Part shown: positions 28,189 through 33,393 of the stretch, one piece after another
Numbering within the stretch: position 1 is the stretch's first letter
How the letters are laid out: the number at the start of each line of letters is the position of its first letter
Origin: Gamsiella multidivaricata
Lineage: Eukaryota; Mortierellomycota; Mortierellomycetes; Mortierellales; Mortierellaceae
Reading direction: 5' to 3'
Length of the DNA stretch: 64,000 nt
Assembly: GCF_025024155.1 (NCBI RefSeq)
Contig: NW_026251739.1
Location: forward strand, 124,001-188,000
Translations under genes and position numbers: made by a program
The notes under the pieces: generated by a model
The model's database searches: none
What the model saw: the letters and a program-made list of their open reading frames with translations, nothing else
Told to the model about the DNA's origin: nothing

Positions 28189-28291
28189 TGACTATGGTCC
28201 GGCCCCGTTTTGCATGGAGCAGTGTGGAGGATGGGCGAATAAAAACTAGATATTATTTTTGGTGGCGACCCTTTCATTGGCCAGTCGCGAT

Positions 28292-28301
28292 AATTCAGGA
28301 T
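28292..28301 (+). repeat. Left target-site duplication
   Basis: AATTCAGGAT directly abuts the left inverted repeat (one extra G at 28302) and is repeated exactly at 33198-33207 after the right inverted repeat. A 10-bp duplication is within the 8-11 bp range typical of Mutator-like elements. Confidence 0.93.
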
Positions 28302-28302
28302 G

Positions 28303-28329
28303 AAAGTGGCGCAAAATTGGCCAGAAATC
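28303..28329 (+). repeat. Left terminal inverted repeat
   Basis: It begins AAAGTGGCGC and ends TTGGCCAGAAATC. It matches the reverse complement of 33171-33197 at 22 of 27 positions, the differences being four A/T swaps in the middle and one near the inner end. Confidence 0.9.
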
Positions 28330-28819
28330 TAGACTACTACAGATCTGATACAAAATGCGAGCGCAATCCTCACGTGATAACTTGTTTGTTCACACGCACA
28401 TGGTTGAATGAAAAGTGGGAGTCCGGCGAGGAGGAGAGCAGACAGCCGCTTGGTGGACCATCTCCAGGGAAAAGTGGTTTTGAACGAGATGGAGAGAGGA
28501 AGGAGGATAAAATTCATATCGGCCCGTGATCTTGACTAAGAGAGGACCCATCGGACCCGACAGGTTGCGTAGCGGTTTTGGGACCCGGCTCAAGTATTAG
28601 AAACCATGCGACTCAGAATGTGCATCATAGGTATTTGGTTCCTTATTTTACATTAGTTTAGTGGGGGCTTTTTGTTAGCTATCTTTTGATAACTTTCGGC
28701 CGGCTGACAGTCCAAGCCGAGGCTTGGACAATGCAGCCTGTGGCACGCCTGCACGCCTGGGGGGATCTGGCGTCAATAAAAAAAAAAAAAAAAAAAAAAA
28801 AAAGAATGAAAAGTGGGAG
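28330..28819 (-). ncRNA. Candidate Fanzor guide-RNA (fRNA) region
   Basis: In TnpB and many Fanzor loci the guide RNA scaffold lies 3' of the nuclease ORF and ends at the transposon terminus, the guide being read from the flanking host DNA. Here that slot is the roughly 490 bases between the Fanzor stop (28820) and the left inverted repeat. In the minus-strand sense it opens with a run of about 25 T (28779-28803), then GC-rich sequence with a perfect 9-bp-stem inverted repeat (28710-28729) and a tandem AGGCGTGC pair near 28745-28760. No ORF competes. Transcription, processing and structure are unproven; the call is positional inference plus the visible hairpin. Confidence 0.35.
28710..28729. 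repeat. Perfect inverted repeat (hairpin) downstream of the Fanzor ORF
   Basis: GTCCAAGCC and GGCTTGGAC are separated by only two bases, so as RNA it would form a stem of 8-9 base pairs with a tight loop. It lies 91 bases beyond the Fanzor stop codon, in the segment expected to encode guide-RNA scaffold. Confidence 0.85.
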
Positions 28820-31516
28820 TCAACACACCGACGCCTCAGGGACGACTGGCAACGGGTCGACTGATGCCTGGACCACGGGACTGCCAGCGCGGTTGCTACT
28901 CATGGGCGCATCTTCATCCATGGCATCCGACCCTGACGCGTAGAAAACGTCGTCGTGGGCCTTGCGTGCACGTTGCAACGGCTCCTTGTTCTCTGATGGT
29001 CGGGCAGCAGTGTCGGCAGACGAGGGGTCGCTGTTGCTGTTGGGTTGGACGGTCGCGGGTCGGGCGGGGCGCTGGGCCGCGGCACGCGGCTCGGTTGACT
29101 TGAGCACCATCCTCCTACTATTGCCATTGTTGGTGATGGTAGTGGTGCTGGAGGTAGTGCGCTGGATGTTGGTGGATGTTAGCCCCGAACCCATAACGGT
29201 CATCTCAGCACGCATGGCAGGCTTTTTTGTCGCACGACTTTGGCTCTGGCTGGTCGTTCTGCGCTTGATGGCTGCTGGTGTTGGGGCAGTAGCGACCCAG
29301 GATGAGGAAGATCCTGCGGCATCATCGTCGTTGTACTCCATGACCCTCGTCCTCGTCAGGGCTCGATCCATAGGTGATGATGGTTCAGCAGTTGCGGCCT
29401 TCTTGCGGCGTCCGCCTTCCTTTGAGGTAGCCTTGCGCTTTCCGCTACCAGTTGTGCTCCTGCCGTTGCTATTGTTACCGTTGTTGCCGGGTGCCGCGCC
29501 CATAGTGCCTCCATTGGTATTACCGCCACCGCCACCGCCACTGTCGCTGGGGCTACTGCCGCCATTGTTGCCACTCGATACGCTTGTTTGCTCTTCCCAC
29601 GGATAGGTGCCATCAGCGCGCACTGGTTGGAGGTATCGCGGCCGGCCGTTCCCATTGAGGTAGCTGCGGACAATATGGCACATGTTGGCAGCAGCCATGG
29701 CGTCCCGATGGTAGCGTCTTCGGCAATGGCGACAATGGAGACGACGAACGGTGATCCGTCCGATAAAGTTCTCACACCTCGGGCATTTCTGTGAGGTATA
29801 AAATTCGTTGACGCCGATGGAGATGTAGCCGAGGGAACGGGCCTAAAGAAAGAAGAGATTGTTTGTACTGTAAGTATGTTGAAATCACTTTTGAGGCTGC
29901 CCTCAAACATCCAAACAATAAAGAACTCACCATTTGAATGAAATATTTGCTAAAAGTACTATCCAGAGAAGCAAGACCTGCCTTTGTCTGGAACTTGGAG
30001 AGTCCGACGGCGATGACAACGTGGTTGTCGTCAGCTTTCTTAGCGCCAATCGATCCACCAACAGCTTTGAGCAGCGCATTGGCAACCTTGGCGTACTCCT
30101 CCTGCTTGGCCCGTCGGGCGTCCCATGTGTGCTTTTTGAACTGGTAGTTGTTGCCGTTGTAAAAGTTGTTGAGCGCCTCATAGTGCTTCTCGCGATGCTT
30201 GATGTGGCTCGACACGCTCGCCTCAGCACCTTTGAGTGACGGTAAGGTGGACTTTATCTGCTTAATCGTACGCGGCTGGGCTGGCGACGCATCGTCATGT
30301 GTGTCTTCCGTTGAGCCATCCAACGGTCTGTGCTTCTGTGCATCCATCCATCGCCTCAACTTAAAGATGGGTTGCATGACTGCCTTGGTCTTGACAGCTT
30401 GGTTGTGAAAGGCCTCGGGATTCTGCACGCCGTTGGGTCCCGGCTCCGGTTCGAGCAGCAATAAGGATGCACCAACAACGCACGCCTGTCCAAGATCAAG
30501 TCCCAGGACCTTCAGTTTGTTACCCGGGCAGCCAAAGCTGCGCACGATACCCTCGGGCGATCGGACGATGTTGCGGATCTCCGATAGGTAGTAGTCCACG
30601 CCGCCAACGGTGCTCTGCAGCCGAGGCGGGAGCTTGGCCACGCGGTAGCGTCGGTGCCGCACTGATTGCAGCTCACGCAGCTTGAATGCCAGCAGCTGGA
30701 CCTTGTGTCCGTCCGTCTTGATCGAGCCACGCAACAGATAGCCTTTGATGCGGTAGGAAGCAGAGTCAAAGGCCTCGTCTCGCAGGCTGTTGACATGGTC
30801 GAGAATCGCGCGTGGTGGCCATAGCCTGGTGGCTGCGAGAAATCCTCGCTTGCCGCGTTATCTCACGCTGAGGCCCGCTGGATTGACGTCTGCGATGAAG
30901 CTCTTGATGACATGGCCCACCAGGAGGGACTGCTGCGCGTCGACAAGAGCCAGGCCGTTGGCAGGCGGATCACTGAACTGTGCCGCCGCCATCTCTTGCA
31001 GCTTGACCTTGAGCGAGGGTTGTGGCATATAGCCATATAGCATGCTGCCACCGCGTGTATTTAATTAGATCCAGCGAGTCCTATCAATTTACTTAGGCCA
31101 CCGAGTAACATATAATGTTTTCGGTGGATAACTCTTGTTCTCATTGACTCCCGGTTCAAGTATACTTCGCAAGGGTCGATGCCAAAAGAAACTCATCAAC
31201 TCGGGCTCCGAGAAGGTGACATAGCCGATCTCCACGGGTGACAGCGGGCAAATCTTCCAGGAGTGTTGTGTGAGGCGGCTGAGGCGAATAAAGTGCCCTG
31301 CTCTTGCTGCTTCTTTAGCTATAGTGACAACCGGAAAGGCTGTGTTAGCGCCAAAGTGAGCTCCACGAAAAAAAAAAATGGTGTTCATATCATAAATCTG
31401 AGCATGACAAGTACCTTTTGAAGCAGAGTCTTGGTGCCGTTCCGGTAATGTTTCTTGATCTCCACGTTGACTTGGCCAGCAACCGATCTCACCAAATCAG
31501 ACGGCTTGTACTCCAT
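28820..31516 (-). pseudogene. Fanzor RNA-guided nuclease (TnpB homologue), probably disrupted
   Basis: Eukaryotic relative of TnpB/Cas12, expected to be an RNA-guided DNA endonuclease. Proposed exons: 31415-31516, about 31094-31369 (5' limit uncertain), 30858-31044, 29931-30857 and 28820-29842. RuvC-I is VLGLDLGQACVVG (Asp codon 30495-30497). The usual RuvC-II Glu is absent after VVIAVGL; instead VNEFYTSQKC supplies the relocated Glu (29804-29806) known for Fanzors. A CPRC/CRHC zinc ribbon follows, then RuvC-III YHRDAMAAANM (Asp codon 29702-29704). The triad is therefore complete. A roughly 270-residue Ser/Gly/Asn-rich tail follows. Two defects are visible: an in-frame TAA at 30858-30860 between SVR and RGKRG with no workable intron, and no in-phase splice joining exon 1 (MEYKPSDLVRSVAGQ...) to exon 2. 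Exon 3 is reached through a 48-nt intron. It could be a decaying copy or contain an unrecognised intron. Confidence 0.85.
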
Positions 31517-31689
31517 GCCGCCGGCGGACAAGGGCGCTTGCTCCAACAAGCTAAGACTAGAGGAAATGGGTGTCCTTGTGTGTGAGAGGGGGAAGGGGGA
31601 AGGGGGGAGGAGAGAGAGGGCGAAGGTTTTTGGGGAGTCGCGAACAAGACAAAAAGCAAAAAAGGAAAAATGGCAGAGTGGTGTGCATG
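31517..31689. promoter_or_regulatory. Divergent 5' region shared by Fanzor and transposase
   Basis: The Fanzor start (31516) and the first recognisable transposase codons (about 31690) are back to back. The segment between is purine-rich on the plus strand and keeps an open frame upstream of the Fanzor ATG as far as 31693, so the nuclease could start slightly further out. No DDE-domain sequence remains here, so the transposase 5' half has probably been lost at this junction. Confidence 0.4.
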
Positions 31690-33055
31690 CCAAGGTTTAT
31701 GACTGTGCCTTCCACGTTGCACAGCTTTGGGAAAAAAGACTATTCACCGGTCATTCAGTAAGTCGAGAGCATTTTGTCACACCAGTGATTGAATTCATGG
31801 GGCGCCGATACTATCGAACAAACTGATCCTTCTTGACATACTGTTTAGCCTGCTCTGCAAAAAGAGATGAGACCCTTGTTGAATAAGATCCGCTTAACGT
31901 CTAGAAAAGAGGGTGGGGATGGCCAGGATGTGCTCTGGCAACAGTTTCGGGACAGGTATCCCAACGACAGCTTGATCAAGTATTTGCAAAAAAATTGGTT
32001 CACCGTCGACGAGCTGCCTAAATCGGCAGAATATCACAGACAGGTAATATGTGCCCCATGGTACAGGATCGATCGCTCAGTCACGCACTTCAAACTGATA
32101 ACATCACCCTTTCTACCTAGAATCTTCCTGACATCACCACAACCTGCTGGAAAGCTGGCACAAAACGCTCAAGAAGGTCTATTTGCGTCACGAGCGTAAT
32201 GTTCGTCCAGATTTCCTGATGTGGATGCTGGCGGCTGTCATCGAGCTAGACTTCCGTATAACCTACTTCAAGGTCAAGAACAGACTTGAAGCACCCAAAA
32301 TGTCCAAATTCGACAAGGCTAGGCAGGCGAAGGCTCGTGCCCTGTCCATAGATGAGGCCAAGCAAATGGTCACAAGCGAGGTGGAGCTTGGCGAGGTGAG
32401 TATTGGAACCTCGCAGGATGCAGCCGGATTTCTCATGTGAATACTTCAGCATGGATGCTGAACCTTTATTCTTCTCTCTTTACAGATCCGTGTCCGGTCT
32501 TTCAAGACTGTCGACACTCACTACATTGTCAAGATCAAGAGGGACAAGGGCTTGATTGTATCTTGCAGTTGCTTCGACTACATCAGGAACTGGATCCCTT
32601 GCAAGCATATGTACTTGGCAGAACAAGTATTTCGTCCTTACAATGTCGAGGTCCAGCAGGTTCCAGATCAATTTCCGGAGGAGCCAGATGTACCAGAGCC
32701 AGCGTCAGCGGAGCATGACAACTAAAGAGCGCTCGATCAAGAGCTCGATCAGCTTGCCGACAATGTTGAAAAAGAGCTCCAGCAACGCTTTCCCGAAGCA
32801 TGGGAGATCCTAACGGCACAGAGATTCGCGGCAGAGGAGGAGGAAATGCTGAGGCGAGAACAGGAGGCAGCGAATGCAAGGGTGGAGTGCGAGGAGAGAA
32901 TCCAACGCAGCCTCGAACAACCTGCCACTCATGTCAACAAGAGGCTGCGAGTGTGCAAATTGACACAACTTCAAGACTTTACTGGTGCATTGGCAGGTCT
33001 GTGCCATCATGCAAAGGAATTGCATATGCCTAGAGCAGGTCGTGCGTATCAATAA
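31690..33055 (+). pseudogene. Truncated MULE-type transposase with SWIM zinc finger
   Basis: The C-terminal half of a Mutator-like DDE transposase. Segments: about 31690-31757 (VYDCAFHVAQLWEKRLFTG), 31849-32043, 32121-32395 and 32486-33055, joined by GT-AG introns. The third segment reads NLLESWHKTLKKVYLRHE, the conserved region after the DDE core. The last holds the SWIM finger CSCFDYIRNWIPCKH (CxC-x9-CxH). Defects: the DDE catalytic core is missing upstream; the third segment needs a one-base correction near 32140 (ACCACAACCTG where ACCACAAACCTG would keep frame); and a TAA at 32723-32725 interrupts an otherwise open frame that continues for 109 codons. The copy cannot encode a working transposase, so mobilisation would need a full-length relative elsewhere in the genome. 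Confidence 0.85.
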
Positions 33056-33170
33056 AAGTCGCTCTGGCGTCGATGTAGAGTGCCAGGGCGTGATGACAGG
33101 AATGAAGGCGAAGAGCTGGGTGGGACACATTGGCATCAGGCGCAACCCGCAATCCTCGCTGCCTCCTTTG

Positions 33171-33197
33171 GAATTCTGGCCAAAAAAGCGCCACTTT
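33171..33197 (-). repeat. Right terminal inverted repeat
   Basis: It ends GCGCCACTTT immediately before the right target-site duplication. See the left repeat for the match. Confidence 0.9.
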
Positions 33198-33207
33198 AAT
33201 TCAGGAT
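33198..33207 (+). repeat. Right target-site duplication
   Basis: AATTCAGGAT is identical to 28292-28301 and marks the other side of the insertion. Confidence 0.93.
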
Positions 33208-33211
33208 TTGA

Positions 33212-33218
33212 CACGTCA
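33212..33218 (-). promoter_or_regulatory. Candidate unfolded-protein-response element upstream of calnexin
   Basis: The minus strand reads TGACGTG within GCTGACGTGTC, a match to the ACGT-core element bound by Hac1/XBP1-type bZIP factors. It lies about 175 bases upstream of the calnexin ATG, five bases outside the transposon's right target-site duplication. Calnexin is a classical target of the unfolded protein response, so the site is plausible but unproven. Confidence 0.4.
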
Positions 33219-33253
33219 GCGAGGGCGGGCCCCAACCCAACCCAATTGAGTCG

Positions 33254-33264
33254 TATATAATATA
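33254..33264 (+). promoter_or_regulatory. TATA-like element of the calnexin gene
   Basis: TATATAATATA lies about 130 bases upstream of the ATG at 33394 and is followed by a C/T-rich leader. Confidence 0.45.
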
Positions 33265-33393
33265 TCAATATATCGTGGACAATATAAACGTTCCCTTTTG
33301 TTCCTTCGTTTTCTCTTTCCACAACTCATTCCATTGCACCTTCATTCATTTCACAGCTTCAACCGCCCTTGACCACCGTTCTCTTCATTCACA

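Follow-up and report, generated by a model that had tools for sequence, protein, structure and literature searches.

Whether the segment at positions 28292-33207 of the genomic window analyzed here, which harbors a Fanzor gene and the remains of a transposase gene, represents one mobile element, and to which class of transposons such an element would belong, is the question raised by this locus. The window (C106:124001-188000), that is, the entire 64,000-nucleotide stretch under study, comes from the Mortierellomycota soil fungus Gamsiella multidivaricata, whose genome (37.5 Mb, 180 contigs) was searched for related sequences. The initial annotation had interpreted the segment as a single transposon unit pairing a Fanzor nuclease with the remnant of a Mutator-like element (MULE) transposase, and this interpretation is borne out by the recurrence of the same divergent gene pair elsewhere in the genome, with longer transposases and 9-bp duplications. 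The unit is almost certainly a member of a Mutator/IS256-class (MULE) transposon lineage of Mortierellomycota and is probably best explained as a single-copy element of this lineage that has undergone internal deletion and decay, with the mode of action outlined below.

The boundaries of the element are defined by direct and inverted repeats. As originally proposed, a perfect 10-bp duplication flanks the element: AATTCAGGAT is present at 28292-28301 and 33198-33207, with no third occurrence in the window. Taken alone, a 10-bp repeat is weak evidence, with two matches also obtained in 5 of 100 shuffled sequences. Because the duplications of the relatives are 9 bp long, we take ATTCAGGAT (left copy, 28293..28301; right copy, 33199..33207; no strand assigned) to be the true target-site duplication, the tenth base, supplied by positions 28292 and 33198, presumably matching by chance. 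Immediately inside the duplications are the terminal inverted repeats, located at 28302..28329 (plus strand) on the Fanzor side and at 33170..33197 (minus strand) on the transposase side, so that the ends initially annotated as 27-bp inverted repeats are present, but as imperfect repeats over 28 positions, 22 of which agree. The combination of an approximately 9-bp duplication with terminal inverted repeats that characterizes MULEs is found in the window element (9-10 bp; 22/28). When a 10-kb stretch was dinucleotide-shuffled 300 times, the best end pair adjoining a perfect 9-bp repeat agreed at 18 of 28 positions. A genome-wide search with the core of the terminal repeat recovered only the two ends of the window element itself; when 3 mismatches were allowed, four more genome sites appeared, all with 3, against a single site for the control. 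This lack of recurrence, together with the fragmentary state of both genes, is what would be expected if two unrelated transposon remnants happened to lie between fortuitous repeats. Such a chance composite is nevertheless highly improbable, given that none of the 300 shuffles matched the ends and the duplication and that the divergent pair recurs next to 9-bp duplications at other loci. At the DNA level, the genome search detected no other copy of the coding parts, so that the earlier suggestion that this could be the type copy of its family had to be abandoned; likewise, the anticipated recurrence of the inverted repeats with these genes fails for the subfamily of the window element and holds for the wider family.

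The Fanzor and transposase genes are divergent, with their 5' ends facing each other. The Fanzor1 gene occupies the minus strand, and its product matches PF07282 (TNB, Cas12f1-like) with 46 bits on 29597-29842 (cut-off 26.3). The last exon (28820..29842, minus strand; stop codon at 28820-28822) encodes NEFYTS, a C4 zinc finger, HRD, and a long low-complexity tail, and is separated by a GT-AG intron read from the sequence (29843..29930, minus strand) from the core exon (29931..31013, minus strand), which was delineated by tblastn with homologues, contains the first catalytic Asp within GLDLGQ (30486-30503), and has P0001 as the closest protein (68% identity). Additional Fanzor coding sequence precedes a nested repeat (31170..31352, minus strand; tblastn with P0013 and P0014), and farther upstream lies a remnant of the linker that precedes Fanzor in the fuller relatives (31412..31558, minus strand; tblastn with P0067, 44% identity, E 1.6e-6). 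The order of the motifs, namely, GLDLGQ, 203 residues, TSQK, CPRC...CRHC, RRRYH, and RD, with the spacing derived from coordinates, matches the Fanzor1 motif D-X(125,275)-[TS][TS]-X-X-C4 finger-X(5,50)-RD given in the available sections of PMC3627910. Fold comparison identified the Fanzor fold and recovered Fanzor structures in the PDB; a profile built from 16 partial Fanzors, searched against the PDB by sequence, detected none. The reading frame is disrupted by a premature TAA in the core exon (30858-30860) and by the nested repeat (31014-31169), and the gene is a Fanzor1 pseudogene. The region downstream of HRD is also unusually long (28822-29696), with about 296 residues, including the low-complexity tail, compared with 14-136 in the 17 measured relatives.

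On the plus strand, the MULE transposase remnant (31692..32725) retains the FHVAQLWE and NLLESWHK motifs and a SWIM finger (PF04434; 20.9 bits on 32486-32722, cut-off 19.6), which also scores above the cut-off in L063 and L064. A C-terminal SWIM finger is typical of many MULEs. The DDE core is incomplete in the window copy, where the stretches carrying the first two catalytic Asp residues are missing. Between the two genes, a purine-rich segment (31559..31691, no strand assigned) stands where the relatives have the XPG-like part and the 5' part of the transposase and is a probable internal-deletion junction; because the 5' ends of both genes face each other, one deletion would account for both losses. 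The window copy would have lost the facing 5' halves of the two genes, probably in this single event, followed by further decay, and, being deleted and decayed, would be mobile only with help in trans. A protein search with the transposase reading from C47 yielded eight proteins, including a full-length relative of 724 residues (P0100) that matches IS256 transposases (E 1.6e-11) and the Pfam MULE family (E 3.8e-4) and contains a SWIM finger above the cut-off; these matches, along with the 9-bp duplications, support the assignment to the MULE/IS256 class. The Pfam MULE family matched eight genome sites, none of which corresponds to a Fanzor-linked transposase C-terminus. There was no match between the joined transposase reading and Pfam MULE, and profile comparison of the transposase with three of these eight sites was not significant. 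The structure model of P0100 was poor (pLDDT 48.1) and was not used. In a protein from Mortierella sp. GBAus27b (P0106), a transposase C-terminus continues into a stretch that looks Fanzor-like by eye (LESQIPSL, FY motif), either as a fusion or as a chimera of gene prediction.

The pairing of these genes is a recurrent feature of the genome. The Fanzor query produced 164 matches, of which the 150 listed, most of them sharing about 35-60% identity with the protein of the window, correspond to at least 101 loci once same-strand matches within 1.5 kb are merged; the transposase C-terminus gave 52 matches (44 loci), and the XPG-like query gave 102 (89 loci, probably including some FEN1/RAD2-type genes that belong to the host itself). 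Of the 44 MULE loci, 20 have a Fanzor no more than 10 kb away (19 divergent and 1 convergent), compared with about 5.6% expected at random positions, a figure computed for this 10-kb distance alone; among the 89 XPG loci, 51 have a Fanzor within 6 kb, and 48 of these XPG loci are upstream on the same strand. Viewed from the Fanzor side, XPG is present at 50 of the at least 101 loci, MULE at 23, and both at 13. These loci are not independent, some being recent copies that are up to 99.8% identical. A single 37.5-Mb fungal genome thus contains 164 Fanzor matches at 101 or more loci, and several subfamilies include near-identical copies, suggesting, from sequence identity, that they have been active recently.

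Several relatives could be delimited as elements. The C137 element (5,757 bp), with GCTCAGCTT on both sides (9 bp) and similar ends, contains a Fanzor together with a transposase that is longer, though broken. The C13 element (4,778 bp), flanked by GTACGAGTG, has Fanzor and XPG matches and no transposase match. The C131 element (6,392 bp; flanked by TGGTCGGTC) includes a Fanzor and the transposase C-terminus and is itself interrupted by a Tc5/pogo-type element, and the C93 element (7,947 bp; flanked by ACAAGCGCT, with 12 shared bases) matches Fanzor, transposase, and XPG. For the latter two elements, the Fanzor-side end was set by comparison of copies and the opposite end by the repeat itself; with the ends so placed, both terminate in CAGACTAC[CT], and neither displays a clear inverted repeat. 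When ends with duplications were scanned for, the window and L064 alone gave a positive result, with none for L063, L065, L066, L067, and L068, the first of which was later settled by copy comparison. L065 and L066 form a 98% identical pair, and in L066, the repeat of GTCACCGAA is displaced by a few bases. In the relatives, the heptamer TGACGTA is located roughly 28 bp in from the Fanzor-side end in 15 of 21 rows and, with one base off, in four more, the remaining two rows not being true ends; it is absent from the window element. The Tc5/pogo-type element of C131 (L063:3667-6687), nested in a Fanzor-MULE copy, has two open frames, and its terminal repeats, each 163 bp long, show 100% complementarity.

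In the fuller relatives, the Fanzor is preceded by an XPG-like nuclease, a component that the initial annotation did not include and that is missing from the window. Comparison of folds shows this part to have the XPG nuclease fold. The XPG_I profile reached 25.0 bits in L067 (cut-off 24.9) and 26.0 bits, likewise above the cut-off, in P0081. In an alignment of six fusions, D851 of the LD-GQ motif, the NE..YTS residues, and the acidic positions of the XPG part are invariant, and the acidic positions TEAD and DSD are also invariant in alignment A2; presumably, these correspond to the active site of FEN1. The XPG-like part might instead be a separate neighboring gene joined to Fanzor by gene-prediction artefacts, in line with the introns and stops that lie between the two parts in the Gamsiella copies and with the lack, among precomputed and scanned Pfam hits, of any single protein combining XPG_I above the cut-off with TNB. 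This alternative is improbable, however, because annotated proteins of several genera, seven in all, extend across both parts, with the linker and the order shared.

A full member of the lineage would consist of a MULE transposase gene, encoding a DNA-binding part, the DDE core, and the SWIM finger, and a divergent gene for a large protein composed of an XPG-family (EXO1/FEN1-like) nuclease, a linker, and Fanzor1. From TnpB biology and the anatomy of the elements, we infer that the transposase would excise and reinsert the element, leaving 9-bp duplications, and that the Fanzor would bind an RNA derived from its own 3' end and the element terminus, with the flank serving as the guide. That the Fanzor would then cleave the element-free copy of the site, by analogy with TnpB, we judge to have an even chance; repair off the chromatid still carrying the element would restore it. 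More tentatively, the XPG-like part might resect or trim the 5' ends and so favor homologous repair. A number of observations weigh against this scenario or the assignment underlying it. No Fanzor is located near 24 of the 44 MULE loci and 38 of the 89 XPG loci, and 41 of the 101 Fanzor loci derived from the 150 listed matches have neither partner. The C137 element lacks an XPG match, and L065/L066 lack an adjacent duplication. The IS256 and MULE matches of P0100 fall under the curated cut-offs, and, among the eight proteins from the fusion search, XPG_I exceeds its cut-off only in P0081, which has no TNB, with three of the eight below the cut-off and four without a match at E 0.01. Folding of the RNA from five Fanzor-side ends (z-scores of -1.75, 0.44, -1.77, and -2.24, and 0.43 for the window) revealed no consistent structure among these five, and an Rfam scan of the window at gathering thresholds produced no match. 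The MULE loci without a nearby Fanzor, in particular, imply that transposases may spread alone, and several transposon superfamilies have captured Fanzor1, according to the available sections of PMC3627910; both points are compatible with the Fanzor and the XPG-like gene being captured passengers that aid neither the spread nor the persistence of the MULEs. We regard this possibility as unlikely, considering that divergent subfamilies keep the parts in the same order and orientation and that the D851, NE..YTS, and acidic XPG positions are invariant in the six aligned fusions.

The window element contains more than the two divergent genes to which it had initially been restricted: the minus-strand Fanzor and the plus-strand SWIM-type transposase are confirmed, and a LINE end, a dispersed repeat of about 155 bp, and the remnant upstream of the Fanzor have to be added. 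Neither the nested insertions nor the pseudogene status of the Fanzor had been recognized. Immediately behind the Fanzor stop codon is a 5'-truncated LINE 3' end with poly(A) (28424-28803, 380 bp, plus strand) between 18-bp direct repeats (28406-28423 and 28804-28821; whole insertion, 28406..28821). A SINE was considered for 28424-28803 and dropped because other copies run on in the 5' direction: at least 35 further genome matches were found, the longer ones extending further 5'. No duplications of 8 bp or more were detected around 17 other LINE copies because their 5' ends lie elsewhere. Of the 518 nt between the Fanzor stop and the element end, 398 belong to the LINE and one copy of its duplication; the corresponding distance is 26-392 nt in 17 relatives (16 places, C97 being counted twice), from a survey of 20 Fanzor-side ends, 18 of them measurable. 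The short dispersed repeat (31014..31169, no strand assigned) resides within the Fanzor coding sequence, through which homologues continue without it, and has eight other genome matches (85-87% identity over about 150 bp). Outside the element, a Peptidase C78 gene (minus strand) lies on one side and a calreticulin/calnexin-family gene (plus strand) on the other, and the start codons that they probably use, as judged by eye, are about 0.1 kb and 0.2 kb away, respectively. The element sits in the gap between the probable start codons of these two divergent host genes (28189-33393), and its insertion may have altered a promoter region common to both.

The closest described counterparts appear to be ROr-4, PBl-3, and MCi-4 of Rhizopus, Phycomyces, and Mucor, MuDr-type Fanzor1 elements (Bao and Jurka 2013, PMC3627910) in which, as here, Mutator-type ends and 9-bp duplications enclose a Fanzor1 in an early-diverging fungal host. 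Unlike in the elements described here, where the transposase and Fanzor share a unit, no encoded MuDr transposase is reported for them in the available sections of that paper; our comparison with these elements covers ends, duplications, and transposase, and the fuller relatives add the XPG-like nuclease. Similarly, the available portions of PMC11423790 describe no XPG-like domain in the solved Fanzor1 structures (PpFz, SpuFz, and GtFz), with PpFz having a cyclophilin-binding insertion instead. EXO1 and FEN1 belong to the XPG/Rad2 family, whereas here such a nuclease is linked or fused to Fanzor within a transposon. For TnpB of IS200/IS605, the proposed mode of action is the same as that suggested here, a guided cut at the element-free site followed by repair from the element-bearing copy (PMC10432273, in the portions available), but its partner is TnpA rather than a MULE-type DDE transposase, and a TnpB-like role would apply here by analogy. 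The same 2023 Nature paper, in those portions, states that the role of Fanzor for transposons is unknown and reports that in the S. punctatus elements the inverted repeats enclose no transposase. In the open-licence PMC literature, we found no paper linking Fanzor with XPG or with Mortierell*, and none on Mortierella with a Mutator-like transposon. Judging from sequence comparison, the transposase inside the Fanzor unit and the Fanzor-XPG-family fusion of the fuller relatives would both be new with respect to the 2013 reports. Because individual elements allow Fanzor, transposase, ends, and duplications to be defined, and their subfamilies include copies up to 99.8% identical, the role of Fanzor for the transposon becomes testable in this lineage. 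Speculatively, the MULEs of Mortierellomycota might encode a one-protein cut-and-resect machine, in which an RNA-guided Fanzor1 fused to an EXO1-like 5' nuclease would couple homing of the TnpB type to a built-in switch of the repair pathway. If this is true, the fusion of an RNA-guided nuclease to an EXO1/FEN1-like nuclease would be novel as a domain architecture and might offer a means to steer repair after a guided cut.
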